A stretch of 64,000 bases of DNA, taken from contig NZ_CP024633.1 of NCBI RefSeq assembly GCF_004924335.1, forward strand, positions 1,922,001 to 1,986,000. The letters run 5' to 3'. The DNA comes from Mycobacteroides salmoniphilum (lineage in GTDB: Bacteria > Actinomycetota > Actinomycetes > Mycobacteriales > Mycobacteriaceae). Positions 50,021 through 61,433 of this stretch are shown here, piece by piece (position 1 is the stretch's first letter; each line of letters begins with the position of its first letter). A model generated the notes under the pieces. The model was given only the letters and a program-made list of their open reading frames with translations, did not search any database and was not told the origin of the DNA. The position numbers and the translations under genes are program-made.

Positions 50021-50329
50021 TTAGCCTCGCGCGATCATGTACGTGGCGGCGCCCTGCATGTCTCCGGTGGTGTAACTGGCCGCGGACTCCGAGACGCCCA
50101 GCCCGGCCCGCCCCAGTTCTTCGACGGCCTGGGCTGCCACACCGGTGTGCTCAATTCCGCGGGCACTGAAACCGGCCGCGGTCTCCAACGACACCGGGTC
50201 GGCGGCGGGCGGAACCACGGCACCGATCACCGGCGCTGCCGCGGCATGTGCGGCAGCCAGCCGTGCGGTGAGTGCCTCCACGGCCGCACTCGTGGCGGTC
50301 AGACCTTCCGGAACGACGTTGAGATTCAT
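50021..50329 (-). CDS. pe5: PE5-type ESX-3 substrate
   Basis: A 102-residue PE protein consisting of the two-helix PE domain only. The N-terminus reads [26 protein letters not shown] (Pro-Glu at residues 7-8), and the C-terminal export motif YxxxD is in [11 protein letters not shown]. It overlaps eccC3 by 4 bp (ATGA) and precedes PPE4 by 4 bp. Confidence 0.95.
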
Positions 50330-53300
50330 CGCGGGTACTCCCTTCCTTGAGCAGCATGCTCATTGACGAGTGGATTGACGGTCTGTACATATGTCGGAAC
50401 ATCACTATCTGACAACAGGACTCCGCGGCCCGCCGGCAGACGCTCGAAACGATGTCCGCGGATGCGGCCCCCATCCTGTGGGCTACCGCTGAGCATCAGG
50501 GTGTTGGCCTGCAGTTCGTGGAAGCGACGCAACATGGGGTTGGTCATCAGTATGTGACCCGAACCGGTGGCCCGCGCGGTGATGATCACCCGGAGTCCGA
50601 GCTCACGCGCCTCGGCGAGCAGACCCGAGATCGGATTCCAGGGTCGCTGCCCGATGTACGGACCGCTGACGGCCGGCGCATCGGGAATCTGATCGACATC
50701 ATCGATGATGAGGTAATGCCGCTGTGCTGTCACTCCGCGTGACACCCAGTTGTGCAGTTCCTCGGAAGACAAGCCGGCGGGTGGCCGACGCTTTTCCAGA
50801 AGCGCGCCGAGGCCCAGCATCGCCGGGGTGATCCGATCGATATTGGGGGTGTACTCGTTGTCCGGGAACAGTGGTTCGTCGACGAGATGTAGACGCCGAT
50901 CCAGAACCGTGAACGCCACCTCCTCGGGTGTCGAGTGTTCCCGGACGGTGCGGATGATGTGTCGCAGCAGCGTCGTCTTGCCAGACCCGGTATCGCCCAA
51001 CACCATCAGCAGTGGGTTGTGGGCGAAGTCCAGCGCCACCGGTGCCAGATCTTGCTCGCGCTGTCCGATGACCACCTGTTCGCGTCCCGGGTACAGCGGG
51101 CCGATGGCGTTCGGTGCCAGGTCGGCCGGCAGCAGGCGAACTGCGGGCGCCTTCGTACCGGGGTACTCGGCGTTGACAGACTCCACTGTCTTGGCATCGG
51201 AGGCTGCGAACAGGAAGTGCTCTGCTTGCATGGTCAGGCCGCGGCCCGGCTGATCGTGCGGCACACTCTCGGCGGGGCGGCGCAGCGCGCCGGGTACCCG
51301 CACATTGCTGTCCGCCGAGTCATGCAGCTTGAGTTCGAGGCGCAGCCCGAGAGCATCGCGCATCGCCAGCGGCACCTCGATCCAGTTCGGTGTCGTGATC
51401 ACGACGTGGATGCCGTACGACAGTCCGGCGTTGGCCAGCTCGGTAAGCCTGGCCAGCAACGGGTTTCGGGTGTTGAACTGGTCGGTGTTGTCGCGACTGA
51501 ACGCGTACAGGTTGTCCACGAGCAGGAACGTCTCGCCATAGCCGTCGTCCAGCGACCGATCACTGTCGCGCAGCGCGCGCAGTTGACTCACTGAGGCGAT
51601 GCCGCGGTCACGGAACAGACGCTGGCGATAGGCCAGGAGCTGCTCGAGCTCACCGAAGGTGCGGCGGATGCGCTCGGGCTCCAACGCGCTGGCCACGCTG
51701 CCGACGTGCGCCAACCCTTCGAGCGCGTGCAGTTGACCGCCGCCGTAGTCGATGCAGTAGAACGTGACATCGCGCGGGGAGTGCAACGCGGCGGCCGACA
51801 GCATGAAGGTCTGCAGAGCTGTCGACTTCCCGGACTTCGGGCCACCGTGAATGATCGCGTTTCCGGCTGCCGATGTCGCATCGAAGATCAGCGGATCGCG
51901 GCGCATCTGGAACGGCTTGTCGATCTCGCCGAGCGGCCAGCGCAGCTGGCGTGCCGGGATCCCGGTCTGGCTCAGCACATCCGCCAACGGGATCGCCGTG
52001 TCCAGCGGCGGCAGCCATAGCTGCGGTGCACGCGGACCCACCTTGGCGAGCTGGTCGCCGACGGTCGAGACCAGCTTGCGCGCCGGCTGCCGCGGCCGGT
52101 CGGATCCACCCTTGACGATCACCGTGGTGGGATCGGAGGCCACCGGCAGCGCGGTGAACTGCCTGGGCTGTGGTGTGGCGTGGATCTCCACGGTGGTTGT
52201 TGTTGACGGCGGCTCGTAGACACCGTCGACATAGGTGCTGCGGAACTTGATGGGCACAGCACCGGGTGCGGGCACCAGGAACCCAACGCCCTTGTGGTCC
52301 TTGCCCGATTCGATGTGATAGGCGTCCTCGGTCCCGATGATCTGCCGAGATGAGCTGGGACTGGCCACCTTCAGACCGATGCGGTACGAGGTGTTCTTGT
52401 CGATGTCCTTGATCCTGCCGACGTCGAGGGTCTGTGACGCGAACAGGATGTGGATGCGGAACGAGCGGCCCTTGCGTGCCACGTAGTCGAACAGTTCGGC
52501 GTACTCCGGGTGGTCCTGGAGCATCAAGGTGAACTCGTCGGCCACCACGAACAACGTGGGGATAGGCGGCAGGTCGTGACCGGCGGCGATCGCTTCCTCA
52601 TACTCGCGGACCGAGTTGAAGGCGCTGCCCTGCACATCGCGACCAGCTTGCTTCAGCAGGTTCTCGCGCCGGGCCACCTCGCCACGCAAAGTATCGGCAA
52701 AACGATCTGCCAAGGAACGTTTTTCGGCCATGTTCGAGATCACGGCGACAACCTGCGGGAAGTCGCGGAAGATATCGGCCCCCGCCTCACCCTTGAAGTC
52801 CGCGTAGATCACGATCAGGCGATCAGCGGAATGGGTCGTCAAGAGCGACAACAGAATCGACATCAGGCTCTGAGACTTGCCGGAGCCGGTCATACCGATC
52901 ATCAGGCCGTGCGGCCCCATACCGCCCTCGGCCTCGTCCTTGAGATCGAACATCAGCGGCTCGCCGGAGGCGGTCACGCCGATCGGCACGCGCAGCTCCT
53001 CATCACGCGAACGCGGCGACCATAGGGCCGGAACGTCCAACTGGGAAGCATCCTCGATACCGAGCAGCGAGGTGAAGGTCGCACCACCGGTTGCGGCCGA
53101 CCGCAGCCCCGGATGCGTCGGGTTTGAGTCCCAACGGGAGAGCCGACGCGAGACGTGCGAGGCGGTTCCGACCGTGAGCTGATCGGCCTCGTCGATATAC
53201 GGCTGCCAATCGTTGCCATTCCACCGGGCGATGCGTGCGCTCACACCGTTCCGATTGACCTGCAACACAGGACGTTCTGGGTTCAGGTACTCCGGAAGCT

Positions 53301-54357
53301 TGGAGGAAACGTCGGTTCCGTCGAGCCGCTGGATAACGGTGACGCCGTCCAATCCGGTCGCCGGGATAGGCGAATTCACGCCGCCCAGGTCGTATGTCGG
53401 GTCATCGAGAATGATCAGCAGGTGCTTGTGCGCACCGGATTCGGCCCCGAACAGCGCACGCTCGGAGAGCACGGGCTTCAATGCCTCGAAGAGCTCGGCA
53501 CCTGTGCGGCGCAGGTAACGTGCCGGGCCGACACCGTCGACCTCGCCGCTGATGTCCACGTGGGGAAGCCATTTGAGCCAGGACCACTCGGCGTCTTCGA
53601 CACTGGGGCCGGCCATCGCCACGGTCAGCAGCGTCGGATCGTGGAACGTGACAGCTTGAGTCACCCACGACCGGATGGAGGCGCGGACAATATCGTCATC
53701 ACCGAGCACTGTGATGCGTGAAACCTTGTTCAGGTCGATGCCCAATGGTGCGCTGCGCACTGTGCGCTGGGTGTCCAGTAGCCCACGCAAAGCGCTGTGG
53801 CTCACCGGTTCCAGATCGATCTCGTCGGCGATGTCCTTGACCCGTACGGCACTGACCAGCGGAACATCATGACGTCCGGCGCGTACCACCAGGTAGTCGT
53901 CATCACCTGGATCCCGCTCCCACTGGCGGCGCGTGCCGGGAAGGGTGGTCAGCTCCTCGGGATCCGGGTGCGACCATTCCAGGGCCTTGCGCTGCTGCGA
54001 GGCGTGGGTGCGCAAATTTTCGCGGACCACCGACAGATACCGCAGATAGTCGGCCCGTTCGGCGTCGACCTCCTCGGTGCGGACCTTATCGCCATTTCCG
54101 CGATACAGCGCGGTAGCGGCCAGCAGCAGCACAAAGGGGAAGAAGAGCGTCTGCGGGGAGATGAGGCGGATGCCCGAGGCGACCAGTGCAACCACCATGC
54201 CGACGATCAGGATGACGATCACGACCGGCATAGCGCGCCGTAGGAACGACGGCGGCACCACGCGGGGCAACTGCGGAGGCGCCTCGACGGTCACCGTGGC
54301 ATCGGGTATCGCCGGAGGCGCTACACGCCGATGGGGTTCGAAGATGAGACGGCTCAA
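50326..54357 (-). CDS. eccC3: ESX-3 FtsK/SpoIIIE-type ATPase EccC3
   Basis: The motor of the ESX-3 secretion complex, 1343 residues in one chain. Two N-terminal membrane helices lie at about 41-105, then a DUF-type stalk ATPase region, then three P-loop domains: [11 protein letters not shown] near 490, [11 protein letters not shown] near 840 and [11 protein letters not shown] near 1125. The first domain has the Walker [11 protein letters not shown]; the second and third have LLVDNLYAF and LIIDDVDQI. EsxG/H signals are expected to bind the last domain. It overlaps eccB3 and pe5 by 4 bp each. Confidence 0.96.
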
Positions 54358-55898
54358 CGGGACTCCTGTGCCTGAGCAGATGGGTTATCGGTCTGGATGC
54401 GCGCGGCCTGGCGATCGCTCGGGGCCAGGCTGTCGTGCGCCAGCAGGGCGTCGGAGCGCGAGAGTGACGGCCCGGACGCGAACAGATCCAGAATCGACGA
54501 AGGGATGGTGAGTGCGGGCTTGTGCAGGCCGAGTGCCTCAAGGGTCTTGTCACCCTCGGCCTCGGTGTCGATGCCGTAACGCACACCGGTATCAGATATC
54601 CACTGATATCCGCCGCGGCCGCCCGGTTGCACCAGGTAGCCGATGCCTGGGGTGATGGCGACCCGGGTCGCGGCAGGGGAGATCAGCTGCACGGCGTGCA
54701 CCGAATCAGAAAGGGGCAGTATCGAACCCGCGAGCAGCGACCACGAATCCGAGGCAGCGTCGGCCGTCTTGGTGAACCGTGTGCACAGCACCGGATCCTC
54801 ATTGGCTGCCAGCGGCTTGATGGCGGCGCTGGGGAACACTCTGGTGTCGATCGCAGACGATGTCGGCAAGTGCGCGACCTGATCGGCCGTCAGTCGCGGC
54901 GGTTGTTCCAGACCGTACGAGTTCGCGTTGCGCAGCGCCGAGGCGATCACGGGTGAAACCTGTTGCACGCCATCGGTCAGCACCGCGTAGTACACCGGAG
55001 TGTTGTCGGTGGAGGAGCTCACCAGCACCGAGCCGATGGGCGCTGCCACGGGCAACGGATAGGCGGTAGGCGTCCCAGCTCCCTGGATGGAGGGAACCAC
55101 GAGTGCCGGAGTCTCGGGAATGGCGTTGAGCAGGCTGGTCGTCACGGGCCGCACGGCAGGCGGCGCAGTGAGGCCCAGGGCGCTCGTGACGGCGATATCT
55201 CCGAGGTCGAGCGCGCTGCGGTGCCCGTCCCAGAGCAGCCAGGTGCCTGAGTCGGAGGACACCACGACAGCGCGGTCACGGGTGAGTTCGGTGGCCTTGT
55301 CACCGCTGGTGTCCAGGGCCCCGGCGATCACGGTCACGGTACGGGTATCGGCGGACTCACACACCGCCCAAGCGGCGTCGGTGCTTTTGGCCTGCACCAT
55401 GCGCTCCGGTGCACCCGGAATGCCGATCAGGTTTCCGCGCGGAAACTGGTCAAGTTGAGTGCTTTTCACCATCGTCGGATCCACAGCCTTGCCGGCGATG
55501 AGACGGGCCGACGTGAGGTTGAGCACCGGGTGCAGGTTGTCACCCACCCGCACGTAGAGCGCGGCGGTCGACCGGTCGGCGAGCACCGGATCGGTTCCGG
55601 CGATACCGGACGGCCGCAGCAGGCTGAAGACGAAGCACCCGATCAGGCCGGTGACGACGATGACGGCACCCATGCTGAATGCCCGGGATTGGCTGCGCAG
55701 CGGATCCACCAGCATCCGGGCGTCGTGCAGTGCCACGCCGGATGCGATGCGACGCATGACAAATCGCCATCCGGTGACCTGGTGCCCGGTGACAAATCCA
55801 CGGCGGTACTTCAGCGGTTCGGAATTCTCGCTGGCCGGGGTGCGTGACGTGAAGGCCCGGCGCTCGGAGTTTGCGTTGTTCTCTCGGTTATCGCTCAT
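54354..55898 (-). CDS. eccB3: ESX-3 component EccB3
   Basis: A 514-residue subunit with a cytoplasmic N-terminus ([21 protein letters not shown], conserved in EccB), one membrane helix (about 73-94, [19 protein letters not shown]) and a large periplasmic domain of repeated modules ([53 protein letters not shown]). The two cysteines that usually bridge the periplasmic core are in WAVCESAD and PVLCTRF. It overlaps eccA3 and eccC3 by 4 bp each. Confidence 0.95.
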
Positions 55899-57757
55899 TT
55901 CTTGACCGACACCCCGGGAGCCGACAGTCCGAGGCCGGCGACGATGGCCTCGACTGATGCCTGGACGTCTTCGACGGTGACGGTCATGAGGTCGTCATCG
56001 CTGAACTCTTCGGCGCCTGAGTTATCAAGGCGGTGTTCACGTTCCTCCTCGGAGCGTTCGACGACGTTACGGACGAAGCGACCGTTACCGGCGACGTCGA
56101 TGCTGCGGCGTGCGATACCACGAGTATCGGGAGCCTCTGCCGCACACATCGCCGAGAAGGCGGTGAGCAGCTCGCGGGCGGCACCCTCGTCGAACTTGCT
56201 GTCGCGCACGGATGCCATTGCCGCCGCAATCTCGACGAGTTCGGGCGGTGCGTACGAAGGGAATTCGATGGATCGAGTGAAACGGGAGCGCAGACCCTCG
56301 TTGGTGTCGAGGAACTGGTCCAGCTCGGCGCGGTACCCGGCGACAATCACGACCAAACGGTCACGGTCGTTCTCCATCCGGGCCAGCAGCGTGTCGATGG
56401 CAACCAGGCCGAAGTCGTTCTTGGCGCCGGTGGACACCAGCGCGTAGGCCTCGTCGAGGAACAGGACGCCGTCGAGTGCGCTGTCGATGACGGCGTTGGT
56501 CTTGGCCTCGGTCTCACCGATGTGCTGACCGATGAGGTCGGCACGGTGCACCTCGCGGACATTCTCGCGCTTGAGAAGTCCCAACCCGCAATAGATTTTG
56601 GCGACGACACGGGCGATGGTGGTCTTACCGGTGCCGGGAGGGCCCGCGAACACCAGGTGGTGAGTGCGGTGGCCGACGGCGAGTCCCCGGTCCTGGCGCC
56701 GCAATGCCATGGCCACGGAGCTCTTGAGCCGTGAGACCTGGTCTTTCACCTGCTCTAGGCCGATGAACTCGCTGAGCTGCTGCTCGGCCTCGGCCAGCAG
56801 GATCGCCTTGCGCTCGTGAGCCTCAGGATCGATGAAATCCTCTTCGGTGGGCTCGGTTTCGGGATCCCAGGGATCGGTGCGGGCGGCGATGCGCGCGGAG
56901 GTCGTGGTGTGCAGACCAACGCTCGGATCGGTCAGCGCGTGCTCGATCTCGCTGTTCTCTGGATTGCCCGCGTACAGATCCTGGAGCACCTCGGTCGCGG
57001 TCTCTTCGTCACCATGGTGACGAAGGTTCAGCGCCTTGGCGAGTGCGCCGTCGGTGGTGGCCACTTCGATTGGCCCACTGGGGTCTTCGAGGTAGGACAG
57101 GGCGGGATTGACCATGCCGAGCTTGGCGAGCGCGATGCCCAGGGTGATCCGCACGGCGTGAGATGTGGTGGCCTCCAGTGAGGCGTCGGTGACCACGGGG
57201 GTCAGCAGCGAGACGACATCGGCCCAGCGCTCGGCCCGGTTCTGCATGGCGACAGCGGCCCAGCGGGCGTTGAACCATCCGGGGCGTCGCTCGGTCACGT
57301 CGGCGATCAGCTCGGCGGCCTTGACGTAGTCACCCTTGTCCACGAGGGCCGCCGCGTAGGCGAGGTGATAGTCATCGGGTCCACTGGCGCGAAACTCAAG
57401 GTAGAGCCCGGAGTCGTAGGCGAAGGTGAGATCACCCGGGTGCAGGTTCACCGCGTGCTGAAGGTGCCCGGCGGTGGCCGAAGTCTCCGAAATGGCTTCC
57501 AGGACGTCGATGGTGGCGCCCCCTGAGGCTGCCAGACCGACCCAGACATCACAGTGATCCTGGGCGGTTCGGCACAGCGAAGTGAAGCCGTAACGCGCCG
57601 CTGGCAAATCAGCGGGCCGTCGCCTGTCATTGACGGAGAGACCAAGGGCCCGGCAACAGGTTGCGAATCGGCTCTCTAATTCAGGATCTATGCGCGGCGC
57701 CGGAGCTGTTGCCGTGGCCACACGCTCTAGCTGGCCCACTCGTTCACGAATATCCAC
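55895..57757 (-). CDS. eccA3: ESX-3 cytosolic AAA+ ATPase EccA3
   Basis: A 620-residue CbxX/CfqX-type AAA+ ATPase, thought to release PE-PPE substrates from EspG3. The N-terminal TPR-like helical domain (about 20-280) begins LESRFATCCRALG. The AAA+ domain (about 340-600) has Walker A GPPGTGKTT near 375, Walker B GVLFLDEAYAL, sensor LLARMENDRDR and Arg-finger region LRSRFTR. It starts at GTG 57757 with GAAGGG upstream. Its first residues, MDIRERVGQLER, are nearly repeated in a short ORF in its own leader. It is the first gene of the operon. Confidence 0.95.
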   Translation of the reverse strand: MDIRERVGQLERVATATAPAPRIDPELESRFATCCRALGLSVNDRRRPADLPAARYGFTSLCRTAQDHCDVWVGLAASGGATIDVLEAISETSATAGHLQHAVNLHPGDLTFAYDSGLYLEFRASGPDDYHLAYAAALVDKGDYVKAAELIADVTERRPGWFNARWAAVAMQNRAERWADVVSLLTPVVTDASLEATTSHAVRITLGIALAKLGMVNPALSYLEDPSGPIEVATTDGALAKALNLRHHGDEETATEVLQDLYAGNPENSEIEHALTDPSVGLHTTTSARIAARTDPWDPETEPTEEDFIDPEAHERKAILLAEAEQQLSEFIGLEQVKDQVSRLKSSVAMALRRQDRGLAVGHRTHHLVFAGPPGTGKTTIARVVAKIYCGLGLLKRENVREVHRADLIGQHIGETEAKTNAVIDSALDGVLFLDEAYALVSTGAKNDFGLVAIDTLLARMENDRDRLVVIVAGYRAELDQFLDTNEGLRSRFTRSIEFPSYAPPELVEIAAAMASVRDSKFDEGAARELLTAFSAMCAAEAPDTRGIARRSIDVAGNGRFVRNVVERSEEEREHRLDNSGAEEFSDDDLMTVTVEDVQASVEAIVAGLGLSAPGVSVKK

Positions 57758-57864
57758 TTACAGTTACAGCCCTTCGCCCGATCGGTATGCTCGCTGATTG
57801 GAGTAGTCGGCTCGCGAACGTGATTGGTTCCTGACGATGCTCTGTTGCCAGCCCGGCGAATCTG

Positions 57865-58008
57865 TCATAGGTCGCCCGCATCGCCTCGGACGTTCCCCAA
57901 TCCAGAGGGCATGGCTAGACCGGCGTGACGGTCAACGGCACGGCGTCGTGGTGTGACCGCCGACACAACCGGGCGTTCGAGTTGATCAACTCGTTCGCGA
58001 GTACTCAT
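57865..58008 (-). CDS. Upstream ORF in the ESX-3 leader (47 codons), start resembling EccA3
   Basis: This ORF begins ATG 58008 behind AAAGGCGG and ends at TGA 57865-57867, 107 nt before eccA3 and in a different frame. Its first 12 residues, MSTRERVDQLER, match EccA3 residues 1-12 (MDIRERVGQLER) at 9 positions in register, although the third codon bases mostly differ. The remaining 35 residues (PVVSAVTPRRR... GDAGDL) match nothing I recognise. It starts about 34 nt after the predicted transcription start. It could be a regulatory leader peptide, a relic of a 5' duplication, or coincidence; translation is not shown. Confidence 0.45.
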   Translation of the reverse strand: MSTRERVDQLERPVVSAVTPRRRAVDRHAGLAMPSGLGNVRGDAGDL

Positions 58009-58048
58009 CTACCGCCTTTATTCCTGGCACCGTTGCTTGCTCGGCAAG

Positions 58049-58077
58049 AGATTAGCATTCCCTTACCTAAGTGTCGA
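58049..58077 (-). promoter_or_regulatory. Predicted ESX-3 operon promoter
   Basis: On minus, TCGACA (58077-58072, one mismatch to TTGACA) and TAATCT (58054-58049) are separated by exactly 17 bp. An iron-box-like sequence covers the spacer and the start of the -10. The transcription start would be near 58042, giving a leader of about 285 nt before eccA3. Confidence 0.6.
58052..58070. promoter_or_regulatory. IdeR-box-like site 1 (on the ESX-3 promoter)
   Basis: TTAGCATTCCCTTACCTAA matches 13 of 19 positions of the IdeR consensus TTAGGTTAGGCTAACCTAA, with the outer TTAG and CCTAA intact. It overlaps the predicted ESX-3 -10, the position expected for iron-dependent repression. Confidence 0.55.
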
Positions 58078-58095
58078 TAGCTAACCCTAGCCTTA
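58077..58095. promoter_or_regulatory. IdeR-box-like site 2
   Basis: ATAGCTAACCCTAGCCTTA; read on minus it matches the 19-bp IdeR consensus at 13 positions. It lies just upstream of the ESX-3 -35 and between the two divergent promoters. Confidence 0.45.
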
Positions 58096-58110
58096 TGAAG
58101 CTCAGGATAG

Positions 58111-58129
58111 TTAGGGTAGCCTACGCTAA
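58111..58129. promoter_or_regulatory. IdeR-box-like site 3 (siderophore-interacting protein promoter)
   Basis: TTAGGGTAGCCTACGCTAA matches 15 of 19 IdeR consensus positions. It overlaps a candidate plus-strand -10 (TACGCT, 58122-58127), 31 bp before the ATG of the siderophore-interacting protein gene. Confidence 0.7.
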
Positions 58130-58159
58130 AAGTGAGGTCAGCGAATCGAGGAGGGTGTA

Positions 58160-58873
58160 ATGCCGAACACAGTGACGCAACCGACACGTGGATGGCAGGG
58201 CGCGGTTCTCAAATTGTTCCGGGCCGGCGACCACCAGCTAACTTTGACCGGTCGGCGCGAGCTGACCGATCACTATCTGAGGCTCAGCTTCTCGGCGGGC
58301 GGCCTGCTGCAGGGCCGTGACGTACATCCGACCATGTGGATCCGGTTGTGGTTCGCGGAGGGGGAGAAGTTGCACCAGCGCGGATACACGCTGGTCAACC
58401 CCGATCCGCAGGCCGATACCGTCGATATCGAGTTCGCGCTGCACGACGGGCTCGCAGCTCGTTGGGCACAGTCCGCCCAGGTGGGCGACACCATCGAGGC
58501 AACGGTGCTGGGCAGTCACTTCGAGCTGCCCGATCCGGCTCCCCGTGGATACGTCATCGTCGGTGATACCGCATCCCTGCCCGCGATCAACTCCCTGCTG
58601 GCGGCGATCGGGGACAGCCCGGCCACGGTGTTTTTGGAGGCCGCGCACGAGAGCGACACGACACTGCCGGTCAGTGCGGGTGTGGTCTGGGTAAATCGCC
58701 ATGGCGAACGTTCACTCGCCGATGTCGTACGTGAGGCAGCCTTCGATGCTCCCGAGTTCTTCGGGTGGGTGGCATGCGATACCCGGACCACGCGCGAGGT
58801 CTCGCGCATCCTTAAGGATCACTACGGCATCCCGCGCAGGTCGATCAAGGCCCAGGCCTACTGGATGGCCTAA
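58160..58873 (+). CDS. Siderophore-interacting FAD-binding protein (ViuB-like)
   Basis: A 237-residue flavoprotein of the SIP family, expected to release iron in the cytoplasm by reducing ferric siderophores. The FAD-binding beta-barrel has the RxYT motif (QRGYTLVNPDPQ) and HPTMWIRLWF. The NAD(P)H-type domain has GYVIVGDTASLPAINSLL, and the C-terminus KAQAYWMA is typical. Shine-Dalgarno GAGGAGG precedes ATG 58160. The adjacent IdeR-like box and divergent ESX-3 operon support an iron-starvation role. Confidence 0.88.
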   Translation: MPNTVTQPTRGWQGAVLKLFRAGDHQLTLTGRRELTDHYLRLSFSAGGLLQGRDVHPTMWIRLWFAEGEKLHQRGYTLVNPDPQADTVDIEFALHDGLAARWAQSAQVGDTIEATVLGSHFELPDPAPRGYVIVGDTASLPAINSLLAAIGDSPATVFLEAAHESDTTLPVSAGVVWVNRHGERSLADVVREAAFDAPEFFGWVACDTRTTREVSRILKDHYGIPRRSIKAQAYWMA

Positions 58874-58919
58874 CGGAGACGGCCCCGGGGAAACGGCCTG
58901 ACGGAATGGTCGATTCCTG

Positions 58920-59246
58920 CTACGAGGCGAGCCGCAGTCGCGGCATCTGCCTACCCGCAGCGTCCAGAATGGTGGTGACGGTGCCGAACCGGTCCGTGGC
59001 ACGTCGGCAGAGTTCACGTAGCTGACGCGGGTCGCTGGTATCGGCGGCGATCGCCATGACCTGATCTGCCCCGTAGCCATGGAGCATCCTCGTCAGATCG
59101 GTGGCGTGTCTGCCGCAGACGACGACCCGATGTCCGTTGCGCACCAGAATCCGGACGATCTCACGTCCGCTGGGGTCGTCGGCATTGAGGACGACGATAA
59201 CGTCGGGTGCCGAGTCGTCGGTGCCGGAGGCTGGGTTGTGGTGCAT
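58920..59246 (-). CDS. Short Rossmann-fold (SDR-like) fragment, hypothetical
   Basis: A 108-residue protein with the first half of an SDR Rossmann fold: strand-helix-strand VIVVLNADDPSGREIVRILVRNGHRVVVCGR, then ADQVMAIAADTSDPRQLRELCRRATDRFGTVTTILDAAG. The glycine-rich loop is replaced by ADDPSGR, and the catalytic YxxxK half is missing. Such short forms could be a nucleotide-binding stub or a decayed SDR. Function unknown. Confidence 0.55.
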   Translation of the reverse strand: MHHNPASGTDDSAPDVIVVLNADDPSGREIVRILVRNGHRVVVCGRHATDLTRMLHGYGADQVMAIAADTSDPRQLRELCRRATDRFGTVTTILDAAGRQMPRLRLAS

Positions 59247-59346
59247 GTACCTATTGAGCCAGCGATTCCTGGGGCCCGGATGTGAGCGCCATGTGGATTG
59301 CTTGGATGACCTCTACTGTTGGTTCCATTCACGCCGAGTCGGCGGG

Positions 59347-60492
59347 TCAGGCTCTTGTGCGCTGCCGATATGACCGCGCCGCCTCTTTCAGGCCCTCCGC
59401 AGACTCCTCGCCCCAGGACCGCAGCATCGCGCGGTTGGCCAGCACCACATCGCGTGTCGCCTGGATCCGCCGGGCCTCATAGGAGGCCAACCCGCGTGCG
59501 AGATCGTCGGCGGATTCCGACAGCGCGTGCGCCAACACCCGGGCGTCGAGGACGGACTGTGAACCACCGTTGGCTCCCAGTGGATACATGGGATGTGCGG
59601 CATCGCCCAGCAGGGTGACGCGGCCCCGGCCCCACGCGGGCAGCGGGTCGCGGTCCACCATCGGGTACTCGACGATGCGTGCGGTGCTGCGCACCATGGT
59701 GTCGATATCCAGCCACCCGAAGTCCCAGCCGGGGAAGTGGTCCAGCACCTCATCGGCGGTGACGGAGTCATTCCACCGTGCGCCGGCGGGGAGTTCCCCG
59801 GCGGGATTGGTGCGTGCGAGCGCCACCCAGTTCACGGTGTGCGCGCTGATCGGGTAGGCGATGAGTTCGTGATCGGTGTCGTCGTGCGCGGCGACCATGG
59901 TCTTGCCCGTGAGGAAACGGCCGATATCGGCTGTGCCGCGCCACATTCGCACGCCCGACCAGCGCAATGGATCCACCGGATGCAATTGTGCGCGTATCGC
60001 TGATTTCACGCCGTCGGCGCCCACCAGAACGGTGGCCGCAAAATCGCTGTCAGCTGTGCGTACGCGGACACCAGCCTCGTTGCTCTCGAACCCGAGAACC
60101 CGGCAGGCTGTCCGAATCGCTTGTGGACCAACGCGTTCCCTGACCGCATCGAGCAGCATGAGTTGTAGACGACCGCGATGCACCGAGATCTGTGGGTGTG
60201 GGTAGTCGCCCACGAGTCCCCGCGGCTCGGTGTACAGGACGGTGCCGTGCTTATCGCAGAATCGGATCTCTGTGGTGGCTATGCCCATACTGGCCAGCTC
60301 GTCGCCCAGTCCGAGTTCGGTGAGGACGCCCACGGCATGCGGAAGCATGTTGATGCCGACGCCCAGCGGTCTGACCTCGTGTGCGCTCTCCAGCACCGTG
60401 ACGTCGAAGCCGGCGGCATGCAGTGTCAGGGCTGTGGTGAGCCCGCCGATACCGGCCCCGGCAATCGCTATGGGTGTCGTGTTCTCGCTCAT
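59347..60492 (-). CDS. FAD-dependent aromatic-ring monooxygenase (PHBH-fold)
   Basis: A 381-residue class A flavoprotein hydroxylase. The N-terminal dinucleotide-binding motif is IAIAGAGIGGLTTALTL with the acidic residue in VTVLESA. The DG motif is in VLVGADGVKSAIR and the GD motif in VTLLGDAAHPMYPLGANGGSQ. It resembles 3-hydroxybenzoate 6-hydroxylase and PhzS-like enzymes; the substrate is probably a small aromatic acid. ATG 60492 (MSENTTPIAIAG) is chosen over ATG 60504. The divergent LysR gene is the likely regulator. Confidence 0.87.
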   Translation of the reverse strand: MSENTTPIAIAGAGIGGLTTALTLHAAGFDVTVLESAHEVRPLGVGINMLPHAVGVLTELGLGDELASMGIATTEIRFCDKHGTVLYTEPRGLVGDYPHPQISVHRGRLQLMLLDAVRERVGPQAIRTACRVLGFESNEAGVRVRTADSDFAATVLVGADGVKSAIRAQLHPVDPLRWSGVRMWRGTADIGRFLTGKTMVAAHDDTDHELIAYPISAHTVNWVALARTNPAGELPAGARWNDSVTADEVLDHFPGWDFGWLDIDTMVRSTARIVEYPMVDRDPLPAWGRGRVTLLGDAAHPMYPLGANGGSQSVLDARVLAHALSESADDLARGLASYEARRIQATRDVVLANRAMLRSWGEESAEGLKEAARSYRQRTRA

Positions 60493-60501
60493 GGCATTCA
60501 G

Positions 60502-60513
60502 CATCGGCCGATG
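60502..60513. promoter_or_regulatory. 12-bp palindrome upstream of the flavin monooxygenase
   Basis: CATCGGCCGATG is a perfect palindrome 10 bp from the monooxygenase ATG, flanked on both sides by TTCAG direct repeats (ATTCAG / GTTCAG). It is a candidate site for the divergent LysR-type regulator, although it does not show the usual T-N11-A pattern. Confidence 0.35.
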
Positions 60514-60563
60514 GCGTTCAGAAGTCCAAGATCTATCCATTCACAGTTCTATAATCGACGCTT

Positions 60564-61433
60564 ATGGAGATGCATCAGCTCCGATACCTGCTGGCGGTGG
60601 CGGATGCGGCGAGTTTCACCAGGGCGGCCGCCTTCCTCCATGTCGCGCAACCGGGGGTGAGTGCCCAAATCCGCCTTCTGGAACGAGAGCTGGGGCAAGA
60701 ACTGTTCGACCGGTCGGGCCGCCAAGTCCGGCTTACCGATGCGGGCAAAGCGGTAATTCCCTATGCGCGAGCCGCTCTCGCCGCGGTTGACGGAATCCGT
60801 GAGGCGGCGGACGAGATCGGGGGACTGCTGCGCGGACATATCGCATTCGGCACCGTCACCTCCCACGGCGCCGATCTGCCCGCGCTCCTCTCGGCATTCC
60901 ATCGCGACCACCCCGCGATCAGCATCACCCTTGCCGAAGCCAGATCGGACGAGCTCATCACCGCGCTGCGGGAGGGTCGACTGGACGGCGCCATCGTCGC
61001 GCTGGGGGCGGGGGAACCGGAGGGGGTGGGGCTGCGCATCATCGACGATCAACCTCTGGTGGCCGCGGTTGCGGCCGCTGATCCGCTGGCGAAACGGCGC
61101 ACGGTGACGCTGGAGATGCTCTGTGAGCGCATCCTGATCTGCCTGCCGACGGGCAGCGGTATCAGGGCGATTCTGGAAACCGCGTGCCAGGCGGCGGGGC
61201 TCACTCCGAATGTGGCGTTCGAAGCAAGCTCGCCGCGGTCGCTACTGGTCCTTGTCGAACAGGGGCTTGGTGTGGCGGTCGTGCCCGCTCCATACCTACG
61301 GACCCGGCCGGGCGTGGTGGCGGTGGATATCCAACCGGCGTTACGGGGCCGACTCGCGCTGGCGTGGCGCCTCGGTGGCCCGGCGGGTCCGGCGGCACGC
61401 ACCTTCCTGGACCGGGCCCGGGCCGTTCTCTGA
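60564..61433 (+). CDS. LysR-family transcriptional regulator
   Basis: A 289-residue LTTR. The N-terminal winged helix-turn-helix reads MHQLRYLLAVADAASFTRAAAFLHVAQPGVSAQIRLLE and DRSGRQVRLTDAG. The effector-binding domain (about 90-289) follows with FGTVTSHGADLPALLSAFHRDHP and EQGLGVAVVPA. TATAAT (60550-60555) lies 8 nt before the ATG with no Shine-Dalgarno, so the message is probably leaderless and strong. It is divergent from the flavin monooxygenase, the usual arrangement for a regulator and its target. Confidence 0.9.
   Translation: MEMHQLRYLLAVADAASFTRAAAFLHVAQPGVSAQIRLLERELGQELFDRSGRQVRLTDAGKAVIPYARAALAAVDGIREAADEIGGLLRGHIAFGTVTSHGADLPALLSAFHRDHPAISITLAEARSDELITALREGRLDGAIVALGAGEPEGVGLRIIDDQPLVAAVAAADPLAKRRTVTLEMLCERILICLPTGSGIRAILETACQAAGLTPNVAFEASSPRSLLVLVEQGLGVAVVPAPYLRTRPGVVAVDIQPALRGRLALAWRLGGPAGPAARTFLDRARAVL

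Follow-up and report, generated by a model that had tools for sequence, protein, structure and literature searches.

The ESX-3 gene eccA3 of Mycobacteroides is preceded by an upstream open reading frame (uORF) whose first codons resemble the start of eccA3 itself. We consider it probable (about 0.6), from comparison of sequences, that this uORF is a leader for translational coupling, derived from a duplicated eccA3 start and perhaps accompanied by a structured RNA element. Coupled uORFs are an already known kind of translation control; what is new here is a putative coupled uORF apparently copied from the downstream gene's own start, located on ESX-3, present in each of the 12 Mycobacteroides leaders compared and divided into two ORFs in one clade.

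ESX-3 is an iron-linked type VII secretion system. The locus lies on the minus strand of a 64,000-nucleotide stretch of Mycobacteroides salmoniphilum DNA (the window, to which all coordinates refer), and its nearest named loci, among Mycobacteroides, are those of Mycobacterium sp. D16Q13, D16Q14 and D16R12. Here eccA3 (55895-57757, minus strand; GTG start; TIGR03922 T7SS_EccA, E 7.3e-230) is followed by eccB3 (54354-55898, minus strand; TIGR03919) and eccC3 (50326-54357, minus strand; TIGR03924 and TIGR03925). We assigned the subtype number 3 from the surrounding genes, the iron box and agreement with the M. abscessus locus as published. Stop/start overlaps link the first genes of the operon: that of eccA3 and eccB3 (55895-55898) reads ATGA in the window and in seven of seven named loci, and that of eccB3 and eccC3 (54354-54357) reads TTGA in the window.

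Upstream, on the same strand, lie a -35 hexamer (TCGACA, 58072-58077) and a -10 hexamer (TAATCT, 58049-58054), which are kept together in most other mycobacterial eccA3 loci. An IdeR-like iron box, TTAGGTAAGGGAATGCTAA (58052-58070, minus strand), sits inside this promoter and agrees at 15 of 19 positions (hand count) with the consensus quoted in the accessible text of PMC9505556. The start site is predicted from the sequence to lie near 58042, and the leader length of ~285 nt depends on that prediction. A siderophore-interacting protein gene (PF04954, PF08021) diverges from eccA3 with its start at 58160, so that 402 nt separate the two gene starts. A second IdeR-like box, TTAGCGTAGGCTACCCTAA (58111-58129; 16 of 19 positions by hand), precedes this divergent gene, and most aligned relatives carry iron-box-like sequence at the same place.

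The promoter is followed by the ORF at 57865-58008 (minus strand; ATG at 58008, 47 codons), and the earlier note was right that it has its own Shine-Dalgarno-like sequence, AAAGGCGG (58012-58019, minus strand), before the ATG. In the window this ORF is out of frame with eccA3 and stops 107 nt before the GTG, as that note had described; the two starts are 251 nt apart. We found that this ORF is only the first part of a longer path. Its stop overlaps (ATGA) the ATG of a second part of 34 codons (57764-57868, minus strand), which holds the conserved C-terminal block and in the window's clade ends 6 nt before eccA3. The gap between uORF stop and eccA3 start is filled by a clade-specific repeat, CTGTAA (57758-57763, minus strand). 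The end block (57764-57832, minus strand) is conserved at the nucleotide level and contains GAAGGG (57770-57775, minus strand), an SD-like sequence of eccA3 recognized by its sequence and pairing energy.

We compared 12 distinct Mycobacteroides leaders (18 sequences including the window, six pairs being identical). The uORF ATG and SD-like region were present in all 12, downstream of an inferred transcript start; the ATG always lay 46 nt from the first base of the -10 hexamer, and CTGTAAGTG was without variation. In eight leaders the same ATG opens a 79-81-codon ORF that is in frame with eccA3 and whose TAA abuts the GTG (0 nt). Three leaders (the window, L006 and L057) form the window's clade, the only one with the CTGTAA repeat and the 47-codon form; there a frame change in the linker yields the two ORFs joined by ATGA. 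In the remaining leader (L007), the usual uORF stops after 54 codons, 80 nt before eccA3, while the frame that runs into the TAA next to eccA3 has no stop as far back as beyond the uORF start; it has a GTG codon 4 nt and an ATG codon 13 nt before that start. The reading frame is changed in four of 12 leaders, and the two frame changes fall in separate clades of the eccA3 tree. In all 12 leaders an open path begins close to the conserved SD and reaches the start of eccA3, in three arrangements, although in the window's clade and L007 this may in part be luck. The stop lies beside the gene start, as in coupled uORF-gene pairs, at 0 nt in eight of 12 leaders and +6 nt in three.

The start of this uORF resembles that of its gene. 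The match of the two N-termini reported in the earlier note was borne out on re-reading: MSTRERVDQLER and MDIRERVGQLER share 9 of 12 residues, with both start codons in register (GTG counted as M). By our own count, 12 of the 36 bases in these codons differ between the copies, seven of them at third positions, so the note's description of the differences as mainly third-position is reasonable, though the bias is modest. The two starts resemble each other more than expected by chance: codons 2-12 were alike at p <= 0.0073 against dinucleotide shuffles in all 12 leaders, and the region from -25 to +45 was alike against plain shuffles at p <= 0.002 in 11 leaders and at 0.058 in the twelfth. The 34 nt upstream of both starts reached p <= 0.05 in four of 12 leaders only (dinucleotide shuffles). 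A covariance model built on the uORF start (R1) re-found the eccA3 start, on the correct strand and in the correct place, in seven of 12 loci (E 0.0012-0.87, three at E <= 0.0043), but it missed the eccA3 start of the window's own locus, and it gave three further matches elsewhere in the 12 loci. Over 198 whole genomes, R1 matched strongly in seven and only weakly in 12 more. The second R1 match was the eccA3 start in three genomes (G169, G092 and G088; E 0.08-0.31); in G147 an unrelated second match (E 0.018) scored better than these. The weak matches were also considered as eccA3 promoters, and none of the five centres inspected was one. In other taxa, R1 found no match in the 18 loci searched out of 60 eccA3 loci.

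Those 60 loci, 55 of them measurable, show where the leader DNA sits. The distance from the -10 hexamer to a conserved EccA3 anchor was 111-157 nt in 54 of the 55 measurable loci of other taxa and 377-388 nt in seven named Mycobacteroides loci; Mycobacteroides thus has about 220-277 nt more between the iron-box promoter and the eccA3 body than other mycobacteria. The sole long leader measured outside Mycobacteroides (463 nt) is that of Mycobacterium MAG Bu41 (L029). In worked cases from other taxa, the eccA3 start lies about 48-75 nt from the -10 (48-49 nt in L064 and L011, by our own arithmetic), with the choice of start uncertain. An old duplication of the eccA3 start, one of two explanations offered in the earlier note, is supported by the genus-wide likeness, by the seven of 12 loci (the window's not among them) in which R1 re-found the eccA3 start, and by a uORF ATG placed roughly where eccA3 starts elsewhere. 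On the simplest reading, eccA3 would once have begun at what is now the uORF start, and its present start would be a copy placed further downstream by the added stretch; that is, a copy of the eccA3 start together with about 200 nt of spacer would have come between the old start and the gene.

The added DNA appears, as far as we looked, to be confined to Mycobacteroides. Among 396 genomes of the broad genus Mycobacterium, 17 matched leader DNA, 11 strongly (the window's own included) and the remaining six over stretches of 31-47 nt only. A wider draw of relatives gave 12 matches in 297, yet no further Mycobacteroides leader. Both the window's leader DNA and the R1 model hit one place each in the window's own genome, with no sign of a multi-copy repeat. 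We found no support for a phage source (the leader ORF of L009 had no phage match) or a plasmid source (the window's leader had no plasmid match).

Substitution patterns suggest that the uORF start is translated, although these tests draw on few changes among related sequences. Codons 1-7 carry seven synonymous changes and one non-synonymous change (events counted by eye), a silent bias that suggests translation of the uORF. The pN/pS ratio was 0.47 over 13 codons and 0.68 over 20. The claim that the peptide is better kept than the bases applies mainly to codons 1-7: the end block (pN/pS 0.84) is conserved as nucleotides, and the linker is near neutral in close intact pairs (0.96). These two values led us to reject peptide-level selection along the whole uORF; the window's clade, however, gave 0.53 for codons 14-47 (18 versus 23 changes) and 0.55 for part 2, again on few changes. 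Synonymous divergence (pS) was 0.13-0.18 in the start and end blocks versus 0.44 in eccA3 codons 22-50, which indicates that the nucleotides of these blocks are constrained too. The openness of the linker was by itself not significant (P 0.15-0.72 per species). The end block is also crossed, in the third frame, by a 45-codon ORF (57744-57881, minus strand) that spans the eccA3 start. We rejected it as a second coding frame because its pN/pS was 1.30 over the 12 leaders; the 0.20 seen in seven close pairs alone, on 11 changes, was taken as noise.

These patterns bear on two other accounts of the uORF. It is very doubtful that a functional small protein of some 80 residues is made from the uORF together with EccA3. 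The N- and C-terminal blocks are similar in all species, and the 0.53-0.55 ratios in the window's clade fit such a protein, as does the existence of one 81-residue entry, P0001, in a 5.8-billion-protein set. This entry was the sole match to an intact uORF peptide among two candidates from a word search and is identical by eye to the uORF of L075; within the limits of that search, gene callers seem to report the uORF rarely. However, a protein of this kind is hard to reconcile with the near-neutral linker, the 0.84 ratio of the end block or the frame changes in four of 12 leaders, and neither P0001 nor the 47-residue ORF matched a Pfam family. It is still harder to credit, and in our view highly improbable, that the uORF is a duplication relic without function. 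A relic would be expected to leave a near-neutral linker, as seen in intact relatives, and frame changes, as seen in two lineages, but the end blocks contain long invariant runs where the linker between them has few invariant columns, and the synonymous sites of eccA3 are far more diverged than these blocks.

The slow synonymous sites raise a further alternative, namely that the conserved entity is a cis-acting structured RNA (or a DNA operator) and that the ORF is incidental or secondary to it. We outlined three possible hairpins on the minus strand that would bind a regulator or shape the leader: H1 (57973-57998), an imperfect palindrome in the start block with 97.2% of cells paired; H2 (57950-57970), with 98.6% paired; and H3 (57787-57821), just upstream of the eccA3 SD, with one pair broken in the window's clade. 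Together they had 97.0% of 300 cells paired and 3 of 25 pairs changed on both sides, a count reached by 4 of 500 shuffles, and their covariation score was reached by 1 of 500. H1 and H2 each have one such pair, changed in one sequence. The hairpins were chosen on the same alignment on which they were tested and each double change is a single sequence, so this structure is suggestive only. Frame changes in two lineages are also easier to accept if RNA is what matters. On the other hand, the full leader folded no better than its shuffles (z 0.15, 55 of 100 at least as good), the start block folded better at p <= 0.05 in one of 12 leaders only, and Rfam gave no family match in the leader, the only sub-threshold match within 55000-61000 lying outside it. 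An exact search for the H1 arm pattern gave a single occurrence in the genome, which argues against a regulon and led us to discard a regulon-wide operator. Nor would an RNA element account for the silent bias in codons 1-7 or for a stop at the eccA3 start. We regard this alternative as unlikely.

Because the start block of the uORF copies the eccA3 start and is also palindromic, two alternative RNA pairings are possible. The duplicated start could accordingly be a switch, in which the uORF start either pairs with the eccA3 start or folds on itself and ribosome loading on the decoy start decides between the two; the modelled start-start pairing would hide the eccA3 GTG, its first codons and part of its SD. 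The uORF-start/eccA3-start duplex was stronger than the shuffle mean in all 12 leaders and reached p <= 0.05 in five, and RNAalifold drew this long-range pairing unprompted. Most of its pairs are invariant, so that covariation speaks neither for nor against it, and we judge such a switch quite unlikely; if it exists, it would be a cis-regulator in which a gene's initiation site is mimicked by a copy of itself. We rejected a pairing between the uORF start and CGTTCGCGAG (57811-57820), complementary at 10 of 10 positions in the window: the duplex reached p <= 0.05 in three of 12 leaders, and inspection by eye showed it disrupted in L007 and L008.

The reading we prefer, a coupling leader, would work as follows. 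Ribosomes would load at the conserved AAAGGCGG and ATG of the uORF, translate up to the stop beside the eccA3 GTG and restart at eccA3, either by termination-reinitiation or through opening of the RNA around the eccA3 start. In the window's clade they would pass through the two-ORF relay joined by ATGA. Leader translation would act under the IdeR-type promoter, with the first ESX-3 cistron depending on it at least partly, and through the ATGA and TTGA overlaps production of EccB3 and EccC3 would also depend partly on it. The uORF peptide beyond its first residues probably matters little. That the uORF, or the relay here, reaches the eccA3 start codon points to coupling rather than to a signalling peptide; of the regulatory leader peptide suggested by the earlier note, the regulatory leader is likely, but its unit is not a 47-residue peptide.

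Several results temper this reading. The frame changes in four of 12 leaders count against coupling. In addition, the GAAGGG of eccA3 has a pairing energy like that of the uORF SD (-7.4 to -8.4 versus -6.2 to -9.6 kcal/mol), so eccA3 could initiate alone. In predictions, access to the eccA3 start changed in no consistent way when a ribosome was placed on the uORF, and we did not use them as support. The GAAGGG and the mixed access results speak against strict dependence on the uORF. It is extremely doubtful that the uORF is instead a classic attenuator peptide, in which a metabolite or a charged tRNA is sensed through ribosome stalling and the leader is switched accordingly. A leader ORF with alternative pairings and the uORFs reported before metal genes of M. 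abscessus in the available text of PMC4974804 lend this idea some appeal, but the uORF translations, read by eye, contain no run of one regulatory codon type, and neither the length nor the codons of the linker are conserved.

Published mutants touch on the same stretch. The accessible part of PMC9505556 describes two M. abscessus mutants with the orange phenotype of esx-3 mutants, whose transposons sit 257 and 6 nt upstream of the annotated start of eccA3, and it treats the stretch before eccA3 as a promoter region. The distances and target sites given there agree with a leader ORF of 246 nt, one insertion falling immediately ahead of it and the other within it, and polarity accounts for the phenotype equally well. 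If ATCC 19977 has an ORF of that length, the transposon coordinates would put its ATG close to 2,261,543 and its TAA immediately ahead of an eccA3 start close to 2,261,297 (complement). None of the leaders we compared contains both target sites, and ATCC 19977 was not recognized among them.

In the text available for PMC11260477, uORF translation is essential for ppe2 in the M. tuberculosis uPPE2-ppe2 pair and acts mainly by termination-reinitiation. This pair is likewise a mycobacterial leader ORF whose stop meets the main-gene start. According to the same text, ppe2 has a B12 riboswitch, an AUGA overlap and no SD; in contrast, the eccA3 leader has no riboswitch family match, a spacing of 0 or +6 nt and an SD-like sequence, and its uORF start resembles a copy of the gene's own start, unlike uPPE2 as described there. 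Coupling at such stop/start spacings is reviewed in the consulted part of PMC12548453, which also covers MIRUs, elements that insert at start codons and bring an ORF coupled to the gene; however, MIRUs are repeats with -4 nt spacing, whereas the eccA3 leader is found at a single locus with 0 or +6 nt. The ribosome-protected uORFs of M. abscessus are likewise small leader ORFs in the same genus, but the uORF section of PMC4974804, as available, names nirA, leuA, ilvB, mgtC, mgtE and others rather than eccA3 or ESX-3. Stop/start pairs of the ATGA type (PMC6728339) are shared by the two uORF parts and by eccA3/eccB3; unlike in general ATGA pairs, the upstream member in the eccA3 leader is a leader ORF and not an annotated gene. 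We found no account of the eccA3 leader ORF in the open-licence literature, although data set S2 of PMC4974804 may list it.

If the first ESX-3 cistron is reached largely through the leader ORF, a translational layer would lie atop IdeR-type control of transcription, and constructs that begin at the annotated start of eccA3 would lack it. The leader would also be a clear case of a copied gene start turned into a leader, and its natural split into two ORFs provides an internal test of coupling. No relative of the Mycobacteroides uORF emerged when we scanned other mycobacteria for coupled ORFs. Six Mycolicibacter loci (L020, L035, L047, L048, L049 and L053) do have a 58-134-codon ORF that overlaps the likely eccA3 ATG by 4 nt. 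This ORF, which begins before the shared promoter, shows no relation to the Mycobacteroides uORF and may reflect independent coupling or chance.
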